Below, piece by piece: positions 4,524 to 59,662 of a stretch of DNA of 64,000 nucleotides (position 1 is the first letter of the stretch; every line of letters starts with the position of its first letter). The DNA lies in the NCBI GenBank assembly GCA_022402525.1, contig JAKRSB010000141.1, positions 1-64,000 on the forward strand. Direction: 5' to 3'. The position numbers and the translations under genes were made by a program. Source of the DNA: Thermosynechococcaceae cyanobacterium MS004 (GTDB taxonomy: Bacteria > Cyanobacteriota > Cyanobacteriia > Thermosynechococcales > Thermosynechococcaceae). The notes beneath the pieces are model-generated. The model worked only from the letters and a program-made list of their open reading frames with translations. It made no database searches and had not been told where the DNA came from.

Positions 4524-6623
4524 ATGAACGTGATTGACTTCGAGCGACAGATCCAATCTGCGCAGACTCGTCTCCAGACGATGCAGACGGCAGCAAGCGG
4601 CTCTCAGGCTTCATCTAAAGCGCTACAGGATGAGGCGATCGCTGAATTTTCGATCACCCTAGAAGAACTACACGTCACCACAGAAGAACTGCGATCGCAA
4701 AACGAAGCCTTGCTGGCCAGCCAGCGTGCCCTTGAAGTAGAGCGTCAGCGCTATCAAGAGCTGTTTGACTTTGCCCCAGACGGCTACCTCGTCACAGACT
4801 CCCAAGGGGTGATTCAAGAAGCCAACCACGCGGTCAGTCGCCTCTTCAACCTGCGCCAAGATTTACTGATAGGCAAGCCGCTTGCTGTCTTTGTAGACAA
4901 AAGAGATCAGACTTCCTTTCATACCCAACTCGCTCAGCTCATCCATCAGGGACAGTCTTTATTTGACTGGGAGGTTCGTCTTAAGCCCAGGGATCAATTT
5001 GCTTTTCCCGCAGCCATCTCTGTCTCCACCATGTACTACGATCCCCAAGGTCATCTGAGCGGCTTTCGCTGGCTCCTGCGGGATCTGAGTCAGCGAAAGA
5101 TCCATGAACAAGCGATTCAGGAACAGGCCAATTTGCTGAATATTGCCACAGACGCCATTCTGGTTCGCGGCTTAGAAAATCAGATCCTGTTTTGGAACCA
5201 AGGGGCGGAGCGACTCTACGGATGGACTGCCGAACAGGCAAAAGGGCAAGATATTGTTGAGCTGCTGTACTCCGCAGATTTACCAAACCCCGAAGCTGTC
5301 CGAAACGACCAGGTCATGAAAAATGGTGAGTGGCGAGGAGAGCTAGAGCAAATTACCCAGTCCCAACAACCCATTATTGTCGAAAGCCATTGGACTCTTG
5401 TCCGGGACGAAGACAATCACCCCAAGCAAATCCTGATCGTCAATACGGATATTACCCAGAAAAAGCAGCTTGAATCTCAGCTATTTCAGGCTCAGCGGAT
5501 TGACAGCTTAGGAACCCTCGCTCGCGGCATTGCCCACGACCTAAACAATATCCTGACGCCCATCCTCGGCATTGCTCAACTGCTCCCCTCCAAACTTCCG
5601 CACATGGATGCAACCGCACTCCGGCTCGTTCATCTGTTAGAAAGCAGCGTGAAGCGAGGCATTGATTTAGTGCAGCAGATTCAGCTCTTTACGGGCAAGG
5701 CCCAGAGTCAGCGCAAAGTGCTGTGTATTGACACGCTAATCTCAGATATTGCACAACTGACCCAGACGTTTTTGCCCAAGTCGATTGTCTTTTCCAGCTA
5801 CAGCACCCCAGATCTTTGGTATATCGAAGGGGACGCTACGCAGCTCCACCAGATTTTAATGAACCTCTGCGTCAATGCCAGAGATGCGATGCCCTTGGGC
5901 GGAACTCTACACCTCAGCGCCCACAATTTTGTCATTGATGAGAATAATATCCAGATGCATCCAGATGCCCGACTGGGTGCCTACGTGGTTATTACCAGTC
6001 GAGATACTGGTACGGGCATTCCGGCAAATATTATGAGCCGAATGTTTGAGCCGTTTTTTACCACCAAGCCCCAAGGACAGGGTTCGGGACTAGGCCTATC
6101 GATTGTAGCGGGGATTGTCAAAAACCATGAGGGGTTTATGCTGGCATCCAGCCGAGTGGGTCGAGGGAGTCAATTCCAGGTATTTTTGCCTGCCTTAAAA
6201 ACCGTCGCATTTTCGCGAGAAGACGAGCTGAACTTTCCGCGAGGCAATGCAGAGCTGATCCTGGTGGTTGATGATGACCTCGCCATTCTGGAATCGACGA
6301 AGCTGACGCTCCAGAACTTTGGCTACCAGGTGGTGACAGCCCAGGACGGCCTTGAGGCGATCGCCGTCTATCGGGCACAGCAAGACAACATTCGCGTCAT
6401 TTTGATGGATTTAATGATGCCGTCTATGGATGGAGAAACGGCAAGCTTCGGCTTAAGGGAGATTAACGCACAGGTCAAAATTATTGCCACTAGCGGACTC
6501 AGCATACAGCACCCCTCCCTAGAACCTGATCTGCCTATCAGCGCCTTTTTGCCTAAGCCTTACGCTGTTGAGACGCTCTTGACGACGGTGCGTAAGGTCA
6601 TTGAGCAATGCGCTCCCGAATAG
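4524..6623 (+). CDS. PAS-PAS hybrid sensor histidine kinase
   Basis: A 699-residue soluble hybrid kinase with no membrane segments. A short N-terminal coiled coil (about 1-75) is followed by two PAS domains (about 77-190 and 200-315) and a HisKA dimerisation domain with phospho-acceptor His338 in GIAHDLNNIL. The HATPase domain (about 430-545) shows an N box (MNLCVNARDAM) and glycine boxes (DTGTGIP, GSGLGLSIV). A C-terminal receiver domain has Asp629 in VILMDLMMP and the acidic pocket VVDDD. The GIAHDLNN type H-box is common in hybrid kinases that transfer phosphate to an attached receiver. It probably works with the upstream CheB and CheR proteins; the stimulus is unknown. Confidence 0.93.
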   Translation: MNVIDFERQIQSAQTRLQTMQTAASGSQASSKALQDEAIAEFSITLEELHVTTEELRSQNEALLASQRALEVERQRYQELFDFAPDGYLVTDSQGVIQEANHAVSRLFNLRQDLLIGKPLAVFVDKRDQTSFHTQLAQLIHQGQSLFDWEVRLKPRDQFAFPAAISVSTMYYDPQGHLSGFRWLLRDLSQRKIHEQAIQEQANLLNIATDAILVRGLENQILFWNQGAERLYGWTAEQAKGQDIVELLYSADLPNPEAVRNDQVMKNGEWRGELEQITQSQQPIIVESHWTLVRDEDNHPKQILIVNTDITQKKQLESQLFQAQRIDSLGTLARGIAHDLNNILTPILGIAQLLPSKLPHMDATALRLVHLLESSVKRGIDLVQQIQLFTGKAQSQRKVLCIDTLISDIAQLTQTFLPKSIVFSSYSTPDLWYIEGDATQLHQILMNLCVNARDAMPLGGTLHLSAHNFVIDENNIQMHPDARLGAYVVITSRDTGTGIPANIMSRMFEPFFTTKPQGQGSGLGLSIVAGIVKNHEGFMLASSRVGRGSQFQVFLPALKTVAFSREDELNFPRGNAELILVVDDDLAILESTKLTLQNFGYQVVTAQDGLEAIAVYRAQQDNIRVILMDLMMPSMDGETASFGLREINAQVKIIATSGLSIQHPSLEPDLPISAFLPKPYAVETLLTTVRKVIEQCAPE

Positions 6624-6711
6624 CGTGAGTTTGATGAGGCACTTGAAGCCCATAAACCAAAACCCCTCTCCCGAAGGCGAGGGGCTTGAGAAACTTGATT
6701 TTTCACAGTTG
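6624..6711 (-). repeat. Dispersed hairpin repeat, copy A
   Basis: The reverse complement of this stretch aligns over about 85 bp with 52755-52839 at roughly four bases in five. The core is a palindrome of the form CCCCTC-gcctt-GGGAGAGGGG, and the end is ATCAAACTCACG in both copies. It lies exactly between the stop of the hybrid kinase and the stop of ctaB, two convergent genes. It may serve as a bidirectional terminator, but as a repeated sequence it may also be a small non-autonomous element. Confidence 0.75.
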
Positions 6712-6739
6712 AGAACGAGGGAGTCCTGCTGAGGGAGTC

Positions 6740-7723
6740 CTACTGAATCATGGGAATTTCATGGAGGAGGGCCATGAGGCTCTGCTGCCACTGCCCCATC
6801 AGCACTCGCGTGAGGGGAAGGCTATCCACGGTCATCCCCAGGCAAAGCATCATCATATAAACAATCGAAAACTTAAAGACAGACTTTGCCACGGTTTTGT
6901 CTTCAGGCGACTGGATGAGCTGCCAGGCTTTAAAGATAAAAATGCTGCCCAGAATCAGCGCGATCGCCCCATAAAGTAAGCCAGAGGCACCACAGGGATA
7001 AACCAGCAGCAGCGTGACGGGCAAAAGCAGCAGCGCATAGTAAAACGTCTGCCACGCCGTAGAGCGCGCCCCAGCCACCACGGGCATCATGGGCACATTT
7101 ACCTTGGTATAGTCATCCTCCATCATGAGGGCGAGGGGCCAGAAATGGGGCGGTGTCCAGACAAAAATAATGGCAAACAACACCCAGGCCGTCCAGCTTA
7201 GCTCACCCGTGACAGCAGCCCAGCCCACCAGTGGCGGAATAGCACCAGCCGCGCCGCCGATCACGATATTTTGAGGCGAGGAGCGCTTGAGCCAGGTGGT
7301 ATATACCCCGATGTAGACTGCAATGCCGGACATGGCCAGCCACGCACTCAGCAGATTAACGAAGTTGGCCAGCAGAATAAAGGAGAGCGAGGCAAGGGCG
7401 ATCGCAAAAATCGCAGCCTGCCAGGGCAAAATGCGGCCAGAGGGCAGTGGACGATGCTGGGTGCGCTCCATAATGCTGTCAATATCGCGATCATAGAGAC
7501 AGTTAATGGTGTTGGCAGAACCTGCTGCAAAGGCCCCCCCTAGAAGGGTGATGCAAAACTGTCCACCATGAATCACCCCTTGGGAAGCCACCCACATACT
7601 TGCGGCAGTGGTGATTAAAAACAGCAGAATTAAACGAGGCTTAGTGAGCTGGTAATAGTCCAGCAGACGGGCGGTTAAAGGGGGTCGGATAACTGAACTT
7701 CTGTCCGACAGGGTTTTTAACAT
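6740..7723 (-). CDS. ctaB: Protoheme IX farnesyltransferase (heme O synthase)
   Basis: A UbiA-superfamily membrane prenyltransferase of 327 residues that adds a farnesyl group to heme B to make heme O. The signature [20 protein letters not shown] with its aspartates for Mg-diphosphate binding is present, as are about eight or nine hydrophobic segments. The ATG at 7723 is chosen over a GTG at 7729 because GAGAAG sits at good distance before it. It follows ctaA by 117 bp on the same strand, and both lie divergent from ctaCDE. The cluster supplies heme A for the oxidase encoded next to it. Confidence 0.96.
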
Positions 7724-7840
7724 AAACACTTCTCTGCTGAATAAACAAACTTATAAACGAGACAGACTACTCAAGCAAACCTATAAGGCACTGCTGAGGC
7801 GCTGCTGAGGCATGATATGGGAACAAGCACCCCTGAGAAA

Positions 7841-8830
7841 TCAGCCCTGCTGGACGGGCAGTGATGATTCAGGCCGATGTGCCGACACTGCAAAAAGCTG
7901 AGCATCAGCCTGGGAGCGATCGCGCAGCGCAATAACGCTCAGGATAATCAACGTGCCAAACAGCGCAGCGGCGATCGCCTGATGGGAAACCGTCAGCCAC
8001 TCGACCTGCAAGTGGAGATGGAGTGTCGAAACCCCAATCCCAATCTGGAGTGTGAGCAGCCCCAAAGCAATCTGGTTCAGTCGACGCAGGAGAGGGTGCA
8101 ACGCTGGAGTTTTCCAGGCTTTGTAGGCCAGCAGCAACACCGATAGACTAGCAGGCACCGCGCTAATCATGTGGCTATGGAGCACGCGACACAAAAGCGC
8201 CGTATCCAGACATTGATGCACCGCCCAGCGGGAGGCCACAAGCGCCCCTAAGATGCTCTGCAGATAGATGCAAATTGCCGCGACCGCTCCGTAGATGTAG
8301 AGGCTACCGCTCACCCCTGTCCCTTGGAAGGGCGTCAAAAAGCTGCCGATAATCACCATGCTGCTAAAAAACAGCAGCGCTGTAGCCAAATGGGCGGTGA
8401 CAATATCAAATCGGAGGAGCTGGGTGACGGTCAAGCCACCCAAAATTCCCTGAAGCACCACCAGTCCAAGGCTAAGCGTGACCGAAATCGGTAGCCACCC
8501 CGGAAGCGATCGCCGATACCGCCAGCAGGTCGCCGCTAGGACAATCATGACCAAGCCAATTGAAGAGGCCGTCAGACGATGAAACCATTCTAAAAAGACC
8601 TGAAAATTCATCTGGGCAGTGGGCACCAGGGTACCGTAGCAGAGCGGCCAGTCGGGGCAGGCTAGACCCGCATTCATCACGCGCGTTGCGCTTCCGATCG
8701 CCATCAACACTAAGGTTTCAAGGCCAATCCCGTAGATAAACTTACGGATTAGCGGCAGCGGTGCGTCGGCAAGGGGAGCCTGAGGAACGAAAGGCTGCTT
8801 AGAGTGAGGATCAAAGAAACTATCAGCCAT
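7841..8830 (-). CDS. ctaA: Heme A synthase (COX15/CtaA family)
   Basis: A membrane enzyme of about 329 residues that oxidises the C8 methyl of heme O to the formyl group of heme A. Eight hydrophobic helices are visible, with conserved text such as GSATRVMNAGLACPDWPLCYG, EWFHRLTAS and HSHMISA, whose histidines ligate heme in this family. The ATG at 8830 (MADSFF) is preferred; an upstream ATG at 8884 would add 18 residues. The gene is upstream of ctaB and is separated from the divergent ctaC by nearly 1 kb of gene-free DNA. Confidence 0.95.
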   Translation of the reverse strand: MADSFFDPHSKQPFVPQAPLADAPLPLIRKFIYGIGLETLVLMAIGSATRVMNAGLACPDWPLCYGTLVPTAQMNFQVFLEWFHRLTASSIGLVMIVLAATCWRYRRSLPGWLPISVTLSLGLVVLQGILGGLTVTQLLRFDIVTAHLATALLFFSSMVIIGSFLTPFQGTGVSGSLYIYGAVAAICIYLQSILGALVASRWAVHQCLDTALLCRVLHSHMISAVPASLSVLLLAYKAWKTPALHPLLRRLNQIALGLLTLQIGIGVSTLHLHLQVEWLTVSHQAIAAALFGTLIILSVIALRDRSQADAQLFAVSAHRPESSLPVQQG

Positions 8831-26269: not shown

Positions 26270-28033
26270 CTAGGGCTGATGAAACCAAGCGGTGATACCG
26301 TCGGCCAAGGTTGCAGCAAGCCTACGCTGAGCTTGAGGGTTCGTGATCCATTCAAATTCCTGGGGGTTAATCATAAACCCCAGCTCTAGCAGCACGGAAG
26401 GGGCGATCGCCGGACGGGTAAGGGCAAGGTTGTTCCAGTAGACACCGTAGGATGGGCGCTGAAGCTTTTGGGTGAGGTAATCATGAAGAAAGACGGCAAG
26501 GTTTTGCGCCTGGGGATGGTACCAGTAGGTGCTAATGCCTTGGGTCTTCCAGGCATCCCCCGCATCGGGCAGGGCGTTGTAATGCAGGCTCAGGGCCAGG
26601 GTGGGCGAGGTCTGCTCAATTTTGGCAACGCGATCGTTCGGGTAAAGGTCATCCTCTCCTTCACGGGTCATGATAACCTTTGCGCCGCGCTGCTCTAGTT
26701 CTGTACGCAGGAGCTTACTCACAATCAGCGTCACGTCCTTTTCAGGATAGCCCGTGGGACCCAGGGCACCTAAGTCATTGCTGCTGCCGTGGCCGGGGTC
26801 GAGCAGAATGGTGGTGCCGCTCAGGGAGGTTTTGCTGCTGGAAGATCGTGCCGTGAGCTTGGGTGGATGGCGGAGAGACAGGACTAAACTGGTGCCTTCG
26901 TAGTTCAGCGCATAGCCCCACTGCTGCTGCGTTTTGAGCTGAATTTGATATTCAATGCGGTTGGGGGCGACCTGCTGCCAATCGAGGCGAGACAGGACGG
27001 CATCCGGGGTCTGGAGGATGGTGTCGGTTTGGGCGATGGTGTTGTGCAGGGTGAGGGTAACGGTGCCGGGGCGTTGCTGGACGGTCACGGGGACAGGCGA
27101 CTGAAGGGGAAACAGAATGCGGGTGCGATCACCAAGGGTCTGCACGCGCACGCTGCGAATGAGGGATTGGGTTTGAGTGGTGGAAATCGGTCGCGTTTCG
27201 CCTTGCTTAATCCAGCCGCCGTAGTCAAGACGCAGCCACTCTCCTTCTCGTCCGGTTACGCTCGCCTGGGTGCCTTTGGGTAGGGGCGTGAGGCGGGAAA
27301 AATCTGTGCTGGGGCCAGTACGAGCCACACCCTGAGCGCTGGTGACTTCAATGCTTGATTGAGTTTGGGGCGAGAGAATTTCCACTTGGCCTGTCCCTGG
27401 TTGTGAAACCAGGGCGTTCCCTTGACGCACCTCAAAGACTGGCTTCCCCAAGACTGTGGGCTTCACGTCCGAGAATTTAGTGCAGCCCTGATACAGTCCG
27501 GGCTGGGCGGTGATGGGCTGATTGGCTGCGGTTAATACGGCTGAGTTGGGCGGCAGTGCTGCCTGAGTTTGTGGCACAAGCGCCAAGACTTGATTGCCTA
27601 GCCGAACGGAAACCTGGGCATTGGGGGTGGCGATCGCGCTGAAGCAAACGGGATCCTGCGGCAGTCGGGCAATATCAACCTTAGGGGTCAGCGACCCCTC
27701 AGCAAAGCCGAGAGTGGAGGGCAGCACTAGCGTGGTTGATTTTCGACGCACCGTGAGGGTAAGGGTTTGGGTGCCGCTGCGCAGAGTGAAGGTATTGTCG
27801 CCAATTTGGAGCGGCAGACTAGGCGAGAAGTGTCCGCCCGGACTGCGATCGCGAATGACTTGACCATTGACCGTGACCTCAGTATTGGGTGATGCCGTCC
27901 CAATCAAAAAGATCTGGTTTGCGGTTGTTTCATGATTTTGAGGTGGATACACCACCTTCAGCACTTCTTCTGCAAACACAGGCTGCACCACGACCAACGC
28001 CCAAGCCAAGCCAAAAAGACCAAACTTACTCAA
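26270..28033 (-). CDS. Secreted N-acetylmuramoyl-L-alanine amidase
   Basis: A 587-residue exported cell-wall hydrolase. A signal peptide (1-21, ending QPVFA) is followed by an Ig-like N-terminal region, a bacterial SH3 domain near 225-280 (VARTGPSTDFSRLTPLPKG), an AMIN-like region, and a zinc-dependent amidase_3 domain (about 400-585). The zinc and catalytic residues lie in LLDPGHGSSND, MTREGEDD, LSLHYNALPD and VLLELGFM. It cleaves the bond between MurNAc and L-Ala of peptidoglycan, as needed for daughter-cell separation. The start ATG at 28033 opens the signal peptide. Confidence 0.94.
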   Translation of the reverse strand: MSKFGLFGLAWALVVVQPVFAEEVLKVVYPPQNHETTANQIFLIGTASPNTEVTVNGQVIRDRSPGGHFSPSLPLQIGDNTFTLRSGTQTLTLTVRRKSTTLVLPSTLGFAEGSLTPKVDIARLPQDPVCFSAIATPNAQVSVRLGNQVLALVPQTQAALPPNSAVLTAANQPITAQPGLYQGCTKFSDVKPTVLGKPVFEVRQGNALVSQPGTGQVEILSPQTQSSIEVTSAQGVARTGPSTDFSRLTPLPKGTQASVTGREGEWLRLDYGGWIKQGETRPISTTQTQSLIRSVRVQTLGDRTRILFPLQSPVPVTVQQRPGTVTLTLHNTIAQTDTILQTPDAVLSRLDWQQVAPNRIEYQIQLKTQQQWGYALNYEGTSLVLSLRHPPKLTARSSSSKTSLSGTTILLDPGHGSSNDLGALGPTGYPEKDVTLIVSKLLRTELEQRGAKVIMTREGEDDLYPNDRVAKIEQTSPTLALSLHYNALPDAGDAWKTQGISTYWYHPQAQNLAVFLHDYLTQKLQRPSYGVYWNNLALTRPAIAPSVLLELGFMINPQEFEWITNPQAQRRLAATLADGITAWFHQP

Positions 28034-28322
28034 TGCTTTTCCCTCACTCCATTCTCATTTCACAGTCTTGGCGCGATCGCACGTTAGAAGTTAATCTCAA
28101 CAATAGATCAATCTCAACAGTAAAATTTACCGAATCGATTTATATTCAAATATATTCAAGCGTTCAACTCATGGAATTCTTTATTTAGTCAACAAGTAGC
28201 AAGTCTTCTAGACTGACATGTTTTCATGGAGAAGTCTTTTGATTAATCATATTTTAAAATTTTCCTACATTCTCAGGCAAAAAGATTTTAGAGAACATTG
28301 AATTAATATATATCCAATACTA
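28034..28322. other. AT-rich spacer upstream of the two-gene island
   Basis: No gene is seen. Base composition shifts sharply to AT-rich after about 28080 and stays so to about 29490. The stretch must hold the amidase promoter (minus strand). Sequences such as ATTTATATTCAAATATATTCAA (around 28136-28157, given here in part) are simple AT-rich DNA. Confidence 0.5.
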
Positions 28323-28332
28323 ATCAATACAA
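28323..28332. repeat. Left copy of 10-bp direct repeat flanking the AT-rich island
   Basis: ATCAATACAA at 28323-28332 is repeated exactly in the same orientation at 29491-29500, directly after the second gene's stop codon. The pair brackets the two AT-rich genes and may be a target-site duplication or attachment-site remnant. Chance recurrence in AT-rich DNA is possible. Confidence 0.55.
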
Positions 28333-28345
28333 AATTATAGTTGAC

Positions 28346-28381
28346 AACCATAAAATATTGTCTTTGAACCATAAAATATTG
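28346..28381 (+). promoter_or_regulatory. Direct-repeat operator-like site before the island genes
   Basis: AACCATAAAATATTG occurs at 28346-28360 and again at 28367-28381, a 15-bp exact repeat with 21-bp spacing, i.e. two helical turns. TTGACA at 28341-28346 overlaps the first copy. The arrangement suggests two binding sites on one DNA face at the promoter of the two-gene island. The second copy ends next to the ribosome-binding GGAG (28381-28384). Confidence 0.6.
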
Positions 28382-28392
28382 GAGATTGATGT

Positions 28393-29004
28393 ATGTCAGG
28401 CATGCGGAGGGCAGATCGTAGAGATTCTAACGATGATAATAATCTCAAAAACCCTCAGGCTCGGAGGCATGAGCCTGCCTCCGAAAAACAGCTAAAGCTA
28501 TCTCTGCAAAATTCTAGAAGTCAATGTGATGAATATCGAGTCAAATTAAAAGAAATTAAAATAATTCATGAAGAAACTGAATCTCAACTTGTAAATGTCC
28601 AACAAGAGTGTCAACAAATACGTTACTTATATCAAGAGGAACAAGCGAGGTCTTCTGACTTACTTGTTAAATATGAACAAGTTAATGCTGAACGTATAAG
28701 GTATATAGGCTTATACGATGAGTCTCAAAGGCAGTTAAAATATGAGCGGCGTTCTAAAGCTGGCATCCGTGGCTGGGAAACGCGTCGCAAAAATGAAAAT
28801 GAACGCCTCAAACAAGAAATTGCTGAGATGATAATTTTGCTAAGAGAATCATTAGCCAGAAAGGAAGAAGCAGTCAGTAAACTCTATGGATTGGCAGAAC
28901 GAATGGATAAAATTCAGCCACTCATTGAGTCAACTGAAGAAGATGCGAATACTCCAAAGCTTAGAAGAATCTGGGTTATTCTTAAAGAGATTATTGGAGA
29001 GTAA
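28393..29004 (+). CDS. Coiled-coil protein of unknown function, AT-rich island gene 1
   Basis: A 203-residue protein not recognised as any family. A basic, polar N-terminus (about 1-30) leads into a long predicted coiled coil (about 30-175, rich in Glu, Lys, Gln and Leu) broken by a short basic segment (RRSKAGIRGWETRRKNE, about 118-134). There is no signal peptide or membrane helix. Codons are AT-rich (many AGA, ATA and AAA), unlike flanking genes, which suggests transfer. GGAG eight bases before the ATG is a good ribosome-binding site. It is separated by only eight bases from the next gene and is very probably co-transcribed with it. Confidence 0.75.
   Translation: MSGMRRADRRDSNDDNNLKNPQARRHEPASEKQLKLSLQNSRSQCDEYRVKLKEIKIIHEETESQLVNVQQECQQIRYLYQEEQARSSDLLVKYEQVNAERIRYIGLYDESQRQLKYERRSKAGIRGWETRRKNENERLKQEIAEMIILLRESLARKEEAVSKLYGLAERMDKIQPLIESTEEDANTPKLRRIWVILKEIIGE
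28456..28484 (+). other. Two overlapping, mutually exclusive GC-rich hairpins inside gene 1
   Basis: CAGGCTC (28456-28462) pairs with GAGCCTG (28471-28477). TCGGAGGC (28461-28468) pairs with GCCTCCGA (28477-28484). Both stems have 7-8 bp and 8-nt loops and cannot form together. The GC-rich segment stands out in AT-rich DNA at codons about 22-31, so it could be an inserted palindromic repeat or an RNA switch. Confidence 0.65.
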
Positions 29005-29012
29005 AAATTTAT

Positions 29013-29489
29013 ATGAATGGAGATTTATTGCCTTTTATCGATAATTCAAATAACAAGACCATAGGGAATCAAATTCGTAAGATAGCCGATCAGATTAGGG
29101 AAGAGACAGCCTTACAGATTAAAGTAACATCCCGAATCTTGGGAGCTGCTGCCAAAATTAGTGAAAACAACGACCGTCTCATTGATGAAGTTGTTGAGAT
29201 GGTTGAGGAAGATCTCGTTGAGAAAGAAAATCAAGTTTTCAATAAGTCCTGCTCTGTTGAAGATCTTAAAAAACGATATAAAACCTTAAAAGAGGCTAAG
29301 TTACAGCTAGGCATAAAAGCAAATGGATGGGTGGCACTTGTTAGCAAGCTAAACGGTACAACTTATCAAAACTTGACATCTACTAATTTACCTGTGAGCC
29401 TAATATTGAATCGTCTTGACACATTAGAAGCTGAGATTAGTGCTTTGCGACTGGAAGTCAGTCAATTGTGCTCTTTATTGAAGAAATAA
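29013..29489 (+). CDS. Helical protein of unknown function, AT-rich island gene 2
   Basis: A 158-residue protein with no recognised family. It is mostly helical: an amphipathic N-terminal half (IGNQIRKIADQIREET), an acidic middle (IDEVVEMVEEDLVEKENQ), a lysine-rich segment (LKKRYKTLKEAKLQLGIKAN) and a C-terminal leucine-rich coiled coil (LNRLDTLEAEISALRLEVSQL). No membrane helix or catalytic motif is visible. Codon use is AT-rich like gene 1. The GGAGAG of gene 1's last codons probably serves as its ribosome-binding site. The pair may form a hetero-complex through coiled coils; this is inference. Confidence 0.72.
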   Translation: MNGDLLPFIDNSNNKTIGNQIRKIADQIREETALQIKVTSRILGAAAKISENNDRLIDEVVEMVEEDLVEKENQVFNKSCSVEDLKKRYKTLKEAKLQLGIKANGWVALVSKLNGTTYQNLTSTNLPVSLILNRLDTLEAEISALRLEVSQLCSLLKK

Positions 29490-29490
29490 T

Positions 29491-29500
29491 ATCAATACAA
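29491..29500. repeat. Right copy of 10-bp direct repeat flanking the AT-rich island
   Basis: Exact second copy of ATCAATACAA, starting one base after the stop codon region of gene 2. A further inverted repeat (ATCAATATT at 29515-29523, AATATTGAT at 29570-29578) lies just downstream. Confidence 0.55.
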
Positions 29501-29625: not shown

Positions 29626-30411
29626 TCATAGAGCAATTCCCTGAGCAGTCTTTATCCAGGGCATTTCACCAGGCTGATAGCTGCGCACCACGCGCCCTGC
29701 CCCCCGCACTTGAGAGCAGTAGGTGTGGCTCACTGGCTCTGTTAAGTCTAAGAGGCTATCGATTCCAATTCCATTCCGGCCTTGGGAAATTCCAGAGCTG
29801 TGAATATAGGTGCCTTCGCCTAAATAAATTGCGACGTGGGTGGCCTTTACGGGGGTGCCAAAGAAAATTAAGTCACCTGGTGCCAAAACATTGACTAAAT
29901 CTTGAGGGCGATCGCCAGGGTTAGCGAGGGGCTGCACAAAGGCTTCTTGCTGATAGGCATCTCTGGGTAGCCAAATTCCTTGGCTGGAAAAGGCGTGCTG
30001 CACCAGCCCAGAGCAGTCGTAGTTGGGGCCAACGGTGCCCCCCCAAAGATACACATTCGGCTGGGACAGGGCCGCATGGACAAAGGCGATCGCGGCTGGA
30101 ATGCGTTCCTGAATTTCGGCGAGGCTGGGCTGGGGCGGCTGGTAGGGGCTTGCAGCAGGCTTCAGGGTTTCTAGGGACTTCAGGGCGACCCAGCCCCCAT
30201 AGTCATCTTCGCAAAGCGTCACCTGTACGACTGAGGGTTCTGCTAGGGGCGAGGCCGAGGGCTGAATTTTAAGGTGTAGACCAGCTCTTGCCTGGGTTGC
30301 TAAGGAGTCCAGCGCTGGTGAGTCAAATAAATCCAGACAGACCGTTGCTTCATACTCTACCGCTGACGAGAGACCCTCTGTTTCAAACTGCGATCGCATT
30401 CGCTGACCCAT
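29626..30411 (-). CDS. NlpC/P60 cell-wall endopeptidase with SH3 domain
   Basis: A protein of about 261 residues. An N-terminal bacterial SH3 domain (about 15-90) precedes an NlpC/P60 cysteine peptidase domain (about 105-255). The catalytic Cys is in GPNYDCSGLVQHAF, the His in THVAIYLGEG and the third polar residue in YIHSSG. The order matches the cyanobacterial gamma-D-glutamyl-L-diamino acid endopeptidases of known structure from Anabaena and Nostoc, which recycle cell-wall peptides. The start is chosen at ATG 30411, which has AGGCG six bases upstream; ATG 30426 and 30399 are alternatives. It is 22 bp after mtnB on the same strand. Confidence 0.9.
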   Translation of the reverse strand: MGQRMRSQFETEGLSSAVEYEATVCLDLFDSPALDSLATQARAGLHLKIQPSASPLAEPSVVQVTLCEDDYGGWVALKSLETLKPAASPYQPPQPSLAEIQERIPAAIAFVHAALSQPNVYLWGGTVGPNYDCSGLVQHAFSSQGIWLPRDAYQQEAFVQPLANPGDRPQDLVNVLAPGDLIFFGTPVKATHVAIYLGEGTYIHSSGISQGRNGIGIDSLLDLTEPVSHTYCSQVRGAGRVVRSYQPGEMPWIKTAQGIAL

Positions 30412-30433
30412 CCTTCGCCTAAGCATCAATCGC

Positions 30434-31201
30434 TTAAGAGTATAGCTGCCCAGCCAAGAGGTACTGAAACAAAAACTCAATGACCTCAACTCGGTTTCTG
30501 GCCTCTTCGGGAGAAGCGCCCCAAACCGTCACGCCATGATTGCGAATCAGACAGGCCGGCACGTCCGGCGTTTGTTCCCGAAATTGCGCGGCGATCGCCT
30601 CGGCAATGCGGGGCACCTGAAGATGGTTTGGAAATAGCGCCAGCTTAACCACGGGGTTTTCGTTCCAAACGCCTAACCCTTTAATCATTTCGATCGCTGG
30701 CAGAGCAAGCTGATCGTCTACAACTCGATTCGACAAAAGCGTAGCAGGGACAGAGTGAACGTGATAGCAGGCACAAGCCTCTGGAAAACAGGCATAAATC
30801 GCCTGATGAATGCTGGCCTCAGCGGAAGGTTTAGCGGCTGGAGTCGGCTGGGTCAATAGCTCCCCCGTGGCGGAAAGGCGCACAAACTGTAAGGGCGTCA
30901 GTTCGCCTTTGGAGCAGCCGCTGGCGGTAATCCAAAAGCTGCCGTCGGGAAGCTTTGCAGAAAGATTTCCAGCAGTCCCAAACATCCAGCCCCGCTGATG
31001 AAATGCATGGGCATGGTGAATTAACTGGGGTCTGGGGTCTGGAGTGCTGGGGTCTGGAGTGCTGGAGTCTTGTGAGCATGAATCGATTGAGCGTGGATCG
31101 ATGCTCGGAACAGTCACGCCTGCGGCAGCGCTGGCTGAGGCATCTTGAGAACCCAAGCTAGAGGATGCAGAGGCAGATGAAGCAGAAGAAGCGGATGACA
31201 T
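30434..31201 (-). CDS. mtnB: Methylthioribulose-1-phosphate dehydratase
   Basis: A 255-residue class II aldolase-family enzyme of the methionine salvage pathway, which dehydrates 5-methylthioribulose-1-phosphate. Zinc and substrate motifs are GTAGNLSAK, ITASGCSKG, YHVHSVPATLLSN (two metal His) and LIRNHGVTVWG. The first 58 residues are a Ser/Ala-rich extension with small duplications (STPDPSTPDP, SSASSASS) that the family lacks. No internal ATG allows a start after it, so the extension is probably translated. It lies just upstream of the NlpC/P60 gene. Confidence 0.9.
   Translation of the reverse strand: MSSASSASSASASSSLGSQDASASAAAGVTVPSIDPRSIDSCSQDSSTPDPSTPDPRPQLIHHAHAFHQRGWMFGTAGNLSAKLPDGSFWITASGCSKGELTPLQFVRLSATGELLTQPTPAAKPSAEASIHQAIYACFPEACACYHVHSVPATLLSNRVVDDQLALPAIEMIKGLGVWNENPVVKLALFPNHLQVPRIAEAIAAQFREQTPDVPACLIRNHGVTVWGASPEEARNRVEVIEFLFQYLLAGQLYS
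31026..31071. repeat. 15-bp in-frame tandem repeat in mtnB N-terminus
   Basis: TGGGGTCTGGAGTGC units repeat about three times at 15-bp period inside the mtnB reading frame and give the repeated pentapeptide STPDP. Confidence 0.85.
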
Positions 31202-58893: not shown

Positions 58894-59404
58894 AAAGTCT
58901 CAATACCCGTCTTTTAAAAGACTTTATTCAAAAACTTTGTATAGTTTAGCCCTACTTTATAGCTCAAAAACAGATCTAGAGAATCCTCATAAAGACATAC
59001 ATTTCTTAAAAATATTTGTTTCTTTACATTAAAACATCTTTGTTTATAAGGAAAAGTCTGAAATCTAAAGAAAAGCTGAAGCCCATATTCCGTAACGATT
59101 TGGGGAGAAAGAATAGCCTGATTGGGTTGCGGGGATCGCTACTAGAAGTAGGCAAATGAGAAGAAACCTATGATGGGGATATGAGTCTATTGTTACGGGC
59201 TGTGTCAAATAGACAAACATTTTACTCAGAAAACCTCGATGGTTTGATTTTCTCTTTTAATGAATGTCCAGATTCAGCGCTCTACTTTAAATGCCCTAGT
59301 TTAAATCCTCTCGTTAAACACCTCAGTTCAATACTCAAGTTCAATACTCAAACCACTTCTCCCAAATCGACTCAATATAACTCAGGCAGTACTGCCTAAA
59401 CTTT
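58894..59404. other. AT-rich spacer after msrB
   Basis: About 510 bp with no credible gene. A 72-residue frame at 59181-59399 has no ribosome-binding site of note, an odd amino-acid mix and repeats at its end (TTCAATACTCAA near 59328-59349). The spacer probably contains the promoter of the next small gene. Confidence 0.5.
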
Positions 59405-59662
59405 ATGAAATCCCCATTAAACAAGTTATCTCTAAAAAGTCATGCAGAATTTTCTTGCCGACACTGTTCACACTATGTTCCTGAGGGTCGTCGCGGGGGA
59501 ACTTGCGAACTCTTAGGCGTGGGGGTACAGAGTCAGTGGGCTGCCTGCGGTCAGATTTTACCCGTGCTGAGCGGGGCAGAATCTGTACCTATCAGTCATT
59601 CAGCCAGTCATTCAGCCGATGGCTCAAGTTTGGTCAATGCCTCAAGTTCGGTCAATGCCTAA
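59405..59662 (+). CDS. Small cysteine-rich protein, conserved in cyanobacteria
   Basis: An 85-residue protein with EFSCRHCSHYVPEGRRGG, then TCELLGVGVQSQWAACG: four cysteines arranged as CxxC...C...C, suggesting a metal site or disulfides. The function is unknown. The C-terminal 30 residues are repeat-derived (SHSASHSA, LVNASSSVNA) and differ from the compact core. The ATG at 59405 is the only start. Confidence 0.7.
   Translation: MKSPLNKLSLKSHAEFSCRHCSHYVPEGRRGGTCELLGVGVQSQWAACGQILPVLSGAESVPISHSASHSADGSSLVNASSSVNA

Follow-up and report, generated by a model that had tools for sequence, protein, structure and literature searches.

Between two cell-wall genes of the cyanobacterium MS004 (Thermosynechococcaceae) lies an AT-rich block encoding two small coiled-coil proteins, and the question addressed here is how this block came to its present position and what its two products might do. 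The DNA analysed, hereafter the window, is the 64,000-nucleotide stretch at positions 1 to 64,000 of contig JAKRSB010000141.1. A first-pass annotation had described the block, at 28.32-29.50 kb, as looking like an inserted cassette that contains an operator-like repeat and is bracketed by a 10-bp direct repeat, and as a candidate for an undescribed two-protein helical complex under its own repressor site. The features of the locus are as follows.

26270-28033, minus strand: N-acetylmuramoyl-L-alanine amidase (Amidase_3; Pfam, 7.5e-40), native left flank
28034-28392, no strand assigned: AT-rich gap 5' of gene A (27% GC from 28090), apparently part of the gained block
28323-28332, plus strand: left copy of ATCAATACAA, judged a chance repeat
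28346-28381, plus strand: two copies of AACCATAAAATATTG (starts at 28346 and 28367, 21 bp from start to start) just 5' of the start codon of A, possible regulatory site
28393-29004, plus strand: gene A, 203 amino acids (ORF listing)
29013-29489, plus strand: gene B, 158 amino acids (ORF listing)
29250-29363, plus strand: core domain of B, SVEDLKKRYKTLKEAKLQLGIKANGWVALVSKLN (profile A5, 7.6e-17)
29491-29500, plus strand: right copy of ATCAATACAA, directly after the stop codon of B, judged a chance repeat
29626-30489, minus strand: NlpC/P60 hydrolase (Pfam, 1.3e-22), native right flank

The sharp drop in base composition reported in the first pass was borne out (35-37% GC, where the window as a whole averages about 52%). 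GC content falls from 57-59% at 26.5-28.0 kb to 35-36% at 28.0-29.5 kb and rises again to 49-56% beyond, and the block is the lowest-GC 1.4-kb stretch in the window (about 35% against a mean of 51.6%), with 38% in gene A, 37% in gene B, and 27% in the gap upstream of A, a segment (28034-28392) that occurs only once in the genome. Because the change in composition begins near 28.04-28.09 kb, the AT-rich feature is better delimited as about 28.04-29.62 kb, wider than the interval given previously. Genes A and B, both on the plus strand and 8 bp apart, proved to be as tightly coupled and their coiled-coil products as unrecognised as had been claimed; searches of both proteins against Pfam, NCBIfam, PHROGs, and PADLOC gave nothing above weak coiled-coil noise, and a search for RNA families found none. 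A second AT-rich dip (38% GC), with short ORFs only, was observed at 59001-59500 of the window, flanked by a methionine-sulfoxide-reductase-like gene and a prepilin-like gene.

By sequence comparison, the block looks acquired, as a copy of a two-gene operon that arrived by horizontal transfer. None of the other 28 genomes in the window's family has the A-B pair, and in congener G001 the ortholog of the amidase adjoins an NlpC/P60 gene, with 51 bp separating the start of the former from the stop of the latter against 1,592 bp in the window. This empty site, which supports the proposal of a block gained between cell-wall genes, was seen in only one of the two congeners (G001, 76% complete); the second, 82% complete, has a differing gene order around the amidase. 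In a tree of A plus B, large lineages cohere and the window copy stands on a long branch beside G111 (branch support aside). The cell-wall neighbours are incidental because the pair adjoins unrelated genes elsewhere. Terminal inverted repeats, an integrase, a transposase, or a nearby tRNA were all absent from the site, and the event would have been an insertion or a replacement, by a mechanism not traceable to visible mobility machinery.

That the block is a cassette, transposable or site-specific, with ATCAATACAA as its bracketing target-site duplication, as the first-pass annotation had suggested, is highly improbable, notwithstanding the exact match of its two 10-bp copies (starting at 28323 and 29491, the only two in the window) and the position of the right one directly behind B. 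A shared 10-mer arose in 168 of 2000 dinucleotide shuffles of the two flanking gaps (about 8%; 24 of 2000 when limited to the nearest 113 and 74 bp), and the repeat pair is therefore weak evidence. Measured from the amidase start, about 290 bp of the gained block precede the left copy, most of them very AT-rich; if ATCAATACAA were a duplication, the DNA to its left would be native, against which the 51-bp gap of G001 argues. The repeat is thus present on both sides of the two genes, but it does not bracket the AT-rich block. A search for an empty site with a single ATCAATACAA led to that of G001, which carries none, intergenic DNA being not alignable base by base at this distance (about 70% protein identity), and ATCAATACAA was also absent upstream of A in every relative examined. 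An empty site lacking the repeat had been named beforehand as the observation that would speak against an insertion footprint; its finding removes the repeat claim and leaves that of acquisition unaffected. A repeat at both ends of the block with a single copy in the empty site was not found, nor was any of the mobility elements named above.

The operator-like repeat is a different matter. The 15-bp unit AACCATAAAATATTG is present twice, as claimed, and a direct repeat as long was found in 0 of 1000 shuffles, a result that speaks against chance. With a period of 21 bp, the element would fit a regulator that binds as a dimer. The upstream regions of A in 59 relatives contained no comparable exact direct repeat, no AACCATAAAATATTG unit, and no conserved operator, and for lack of a comparable repeat there, the element appears to belong to the window copy rather than to the operon family.

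The pair is conserved as a unit elsewhere, bearing out the claim of an undescribed two-protein helical unit. Matches to B with E values of 0.001 or better were obtained in 46 of the 388 genomes of the class, about 40 of which gave good matches across most of its length, and B is present in about 10% of the sampled species; it is present in neither congener, and the one weak match elsewhere in the family (G010) represents a sister pair type with a HicA-like partner. A single-sequence search of genome contigs with B gave no match. Both genes were present, A directly upstream, at 38 of 40 loci in one set of sampled genomes and at 64 of the 65 loci with named hosts obtained by a profile search from the A alignment, the exceptions being copies at contig ends or visibly degraded ones. 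The two genes mostly lie 5-18 nt apart or overlap slightly, 12 nt being the most frequent distance. Neighbouring genes are shared only inside genera, as in nine genomes of one genus, in which the pair stays at one locus, and are unrelated across lineages; no conserved third gene was found beyond this synteny within genera. The A-B pair is a real, unusual, and uncharacterised two-protein unit, and its family is defined by the A segment together with an adjacent B that carries the B motifs and core. The window pair has all of these elements, with ERRSKAG-GWETRRK-EN-LK-EI in A and with SRILGAAA...VEMVEEDL followed by the core domain in B.

So far as searched, the A-B operon appears to be confined to cyanobacteria. 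The hosts include Nostoc, Calothrix, Tolypothrix, Leptolyngbya, Nodosilinea, Phormidium, Oscillatoria, and others, and further Hydrococcus (Pleurocapsales) and metagenome-assembled genomes without genus assignment. Apart from Hydrococcus, the named genera are filamentous, and the named hosts as a whole are filamentous or pseudofilamentous, or unclassified metagenome-assembled genomes. Phage records gave no match to the pair and viral contigs none to A, and the pair is nearly always chromosomal, with one case of plasmid carriage (pNSMS101 of Nostoc sp. MS1). In one Nostocaceae-type genus, A-B is present in 4 of 13 genomes, and a B core domain of any kind in about a fifth of the sampled genomes of that family. 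In G656, B is truncated and A is missing (L268 6264-6641), and in G317, B is frameshifted (L089 1947-2407); these degraded pairs indicate that A-B can be lost.

Protein A consists of an N-terminal motif (MRRxDRR...EP), a central coiled coil, the invariant ERRSKAGIRGWETRRKNENERLKQEI, and a C-terminal motif (AERMDKIQ...LRRIWVILKEI). Its homologs are 39-56% identical, and the 30 invariant columns among 37 sequences cluster in ERRSKAGIKGWETRRKRENERLKQEI and the C-terminal third; this most conserved part is strongly basic and continues straight into the coiled coil. The centre is built of 14-residue repeats, with autocorrelation peaks at 14, 28, and 42, and the N-terminal motif and ERRSKAG are separated by distances that change in steps of 14 (94, 108, 122, 136, 150, 164, 178, and 192), from which whole two-heptad units appear to have been gained and lost. 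These distances, all equal modulo 14, were observed in 32 of the 75 distinct cores, a count that includes kinship among the sequences; the motif finder was a simple pattern, and the remaining values include other N-termini. Steps of 14 residues would keep the heptad register, as expected for a rod of variable length, and the model of an A homolog was one helix over residues 36-215 (pLDDT of about 90 and above across the repeat). Many A proteins of Nostocales have a different stretch in place of the N-terminal part; two of them (L172 5401-6450 and L240 1860-3014) begin with MSQERPYI... instead of MRRxDRR, with no Pfam match.

Protein B, aligned with 38 homologs, has a long N-terminal helix with TSRILGAAAKI...DRLIDEVVEMVEEDL, a core domain of about 35 residues, and a C-terminal helix. 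Its AlphaFold2 model (mean pLDDT 77.6, pTM 0.30) contained helices at residues 17-76, 82-88, 92-99, 106-119, and 128-157, of which the first, 60 residues long, is the N-terminal helix, and the three short ones form the core, with the consensus TVxxLKxxFKTFxxAKxHFGIKAxSWxxLAxKLN. The core is present as a single copy in the window genome. Profile searches of PDB with A and B gave coiled-coil or chance matches only, and Foldseek found no match in PDB and none below E 2.6 among viral models; neither an enzyme domain nor a structural homolog was found for the pair. A weak likeness between the core and the tryptophan-containing helix of Mn/Fe superoxide dismutase (E 0.4) was treated as chance.

For the role of the pair, the closest precedent by description is ZicK and ZacK of Anabaena, which are Alr4504 and Alr4505, with consecutive gene numbers. 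These coiled-coil-rich proteins of Anabaena sp. PCC 7120 are strictly interdependent in forming heteropolymers (PMC7766704). A and B are likewise an adjacent pair of coiled-coil-rich proteins encoded together by neighbouring genes of filamentous cyanobacteria, the likeness being one of description; for ZicK/ZacK polymers were reported, whereas A-B is known here from genes and helical models. Other coiled-coil-rich proteins proposed to be intermediate-filament-like in cyanobacteria, Fm7001, All4981, HmpF, and Slr7083 (PMC7766704), are described as single proteins and are set apart from A-B by these descriptions.

By this analogy, it is close to an even prospect, if somewhat short of it, that the gained operon encodes a heteromeric coiled-coil scaffold or filament working like ZicK/ZacK. 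A and B would co-assemble into one hetero-oligomeric structure, in which A would supply the rod, its length set by the count of 14-residue units, the invariant basic segment and C-terminus of A would dock B, and the long N-terminal helix and core domain of B would close off the rod and link it to a partner. The constant pairing, the repeat-built rod, the highly conserved segments, and the finding of no catalytic domain are consistent with such a scaffold. On the other side, the small single-contig genomes of several relatives in the family suggest unicells, and the joint structure prediction proposed in the first pass gave no confident interface: a read-through fusion of a homologous A-B pair, folded as one chain, reached a pTM of 0.29, and no A-B interface is therefore supported. 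If the pair assembles, it would be a transferable two-gene heteromeric scaffold with a rod length tuned in 14-residue steps, and would enlarge the small group of bacterial coiled-coil systems that are known to require two partners.

Binding of nucleic acid is an equally possible role for the basic segment of A. In the corresponding alternative, which we regard as unlikely, A would be a coiled-coil dimer that grips DNA through the basic ERRSKAGIKGWETRRKRENERLKQEI in a bZIP-like manner, with B as co-factor, in nucleoid organisation, partition, or regulation. Besides the strongly basic character of the most conserved part of A as it runs into the coiled coil, a sister pair type in the window's family, with a weak HicA-like match on its A-like partner, points in this direction; HicA has a dsRBD-type fold. 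A proteomics paper citing STRING suggested a link to DNA metabolism for Alr4504/Alr4505, a pair without demonstrated kinship to A-B (PMC8147232). Against nucleic-acid binding, however, neither a DNA-binding family match nor a structural homolog was obtained, genes of partition or replication are not enriched among the neighbours, and the location of the pair is, as noted, nearly always chromosomal.

The patchy distribution and foreign composition would also fit an anti-phage or toxin-antitoxin module on a small genomic island, as would the position of one pair on a Nostoc plasmid, where a type I cas operon lies 1.5 kb away, that of a distant A-B-like pair directly before a cas10-like gene in G010, and the tandem B N-terminal segments in large proteins of two viral contigs, such as a decoy or counter-defence might use. 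This reading is nevertheless quite improbable. The profile search against defence and phage families that had been proposed gave no PADLOC family for either protein and nothing in PHROGs beyond coiled-coil noise; only isolated defence genes, with no enrichment, were found among 134 representative neighbour proteins, and the pair neither matches a known defence family nor lies in a defence island. It is kept at one locus within a genus, a toxin-like domain is absent, and A has no Pfam match to HicA such as a HicAB toxin-antitoxin system would show. An association of the pair with CRISPR was considered and judged incidental (two cases, one of them the distant pair).

Searches that started from B and continued with the core alone revealed the core of B in other settings. 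It is part of the second gene product in two other types of coiled-coil pair. Within the window's family it is present in eight genomes, the window genome and seven others, and in six of these seven a HicA-like partner lies beside it. The HicA-like pairs (G004, G010, G011, G018, G020, G022, G032, and G103) resemble A-B in having a coiled-coil gene first and a small B-core gene second, but differ in the first gene, where a HicA-like stretch is N-terminal and the ERRSKAGIKGWETRRK segment is lacking, and in the second protein, which is shorter and without most of the N-terminal module; the HicA-like stretch on the rod was matched at E about 1e-4, below Pfam's cut-off. In the other type (G141, G243, and G316), a coiled-coil partner marked by RLxNAIxSRNSMxGxLGNMT is again first and the core is C-terminal in the second protein, whereas the partner family and the N-terminal half of the second protein are other than those of A-B.

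It is possible, though rather doubtful, that cyanobacteria have modular two-gene coiled-coil systems built on this shared, undescribed core of about 35 residues, in which rods of the 14-residue-repeat type, the HicA-like type, or the third type pair with the core, and the core also serves as a recruitment tag on kinase, J-domain, and membrane proteins, while some cyanophages carry the B N-terminal module, perhaps to interfere with such systems or exploit them. The core ties the pair to several uncharacterised proteins, and one structure or pull-down could thereby annotate a set of cyanobacterial orphan genes.

Among the proteins with a core, a Ser/Thr protein kinase carries it at the C-terminus (L218 7810-7932 within 5824-7935). 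In a two-gene unit, a protein with a J-domain and a B core is encoded ahead of a gene bearing an HNH-like motif (L215 6119-7245, L214 626-1883, and L262 5699-6841), a setting also present at L261. Several diverged copies of the core were observed in proteins with putative membrane segments (L217 7419-8567, L219 6984-8276, and L237 541-1833). In G010, the HicA-like coiled-coil gene and its B-core gene (L098 4373-7774; G010:C11) lie directly upstream of the cas10-like gene and of further genes that resemble a type III CRISPR locus, a CARF-like gene among them, the types being judged by eye from the sequences. In two IMG/VR viral contigs, two tandem B N-terminal modules were found in large multidomain proteins resembling polyvalent proteins (L183 8001-8432 and L184 8016-8480), and such phage copies offer a possible handle on the role of the B module.
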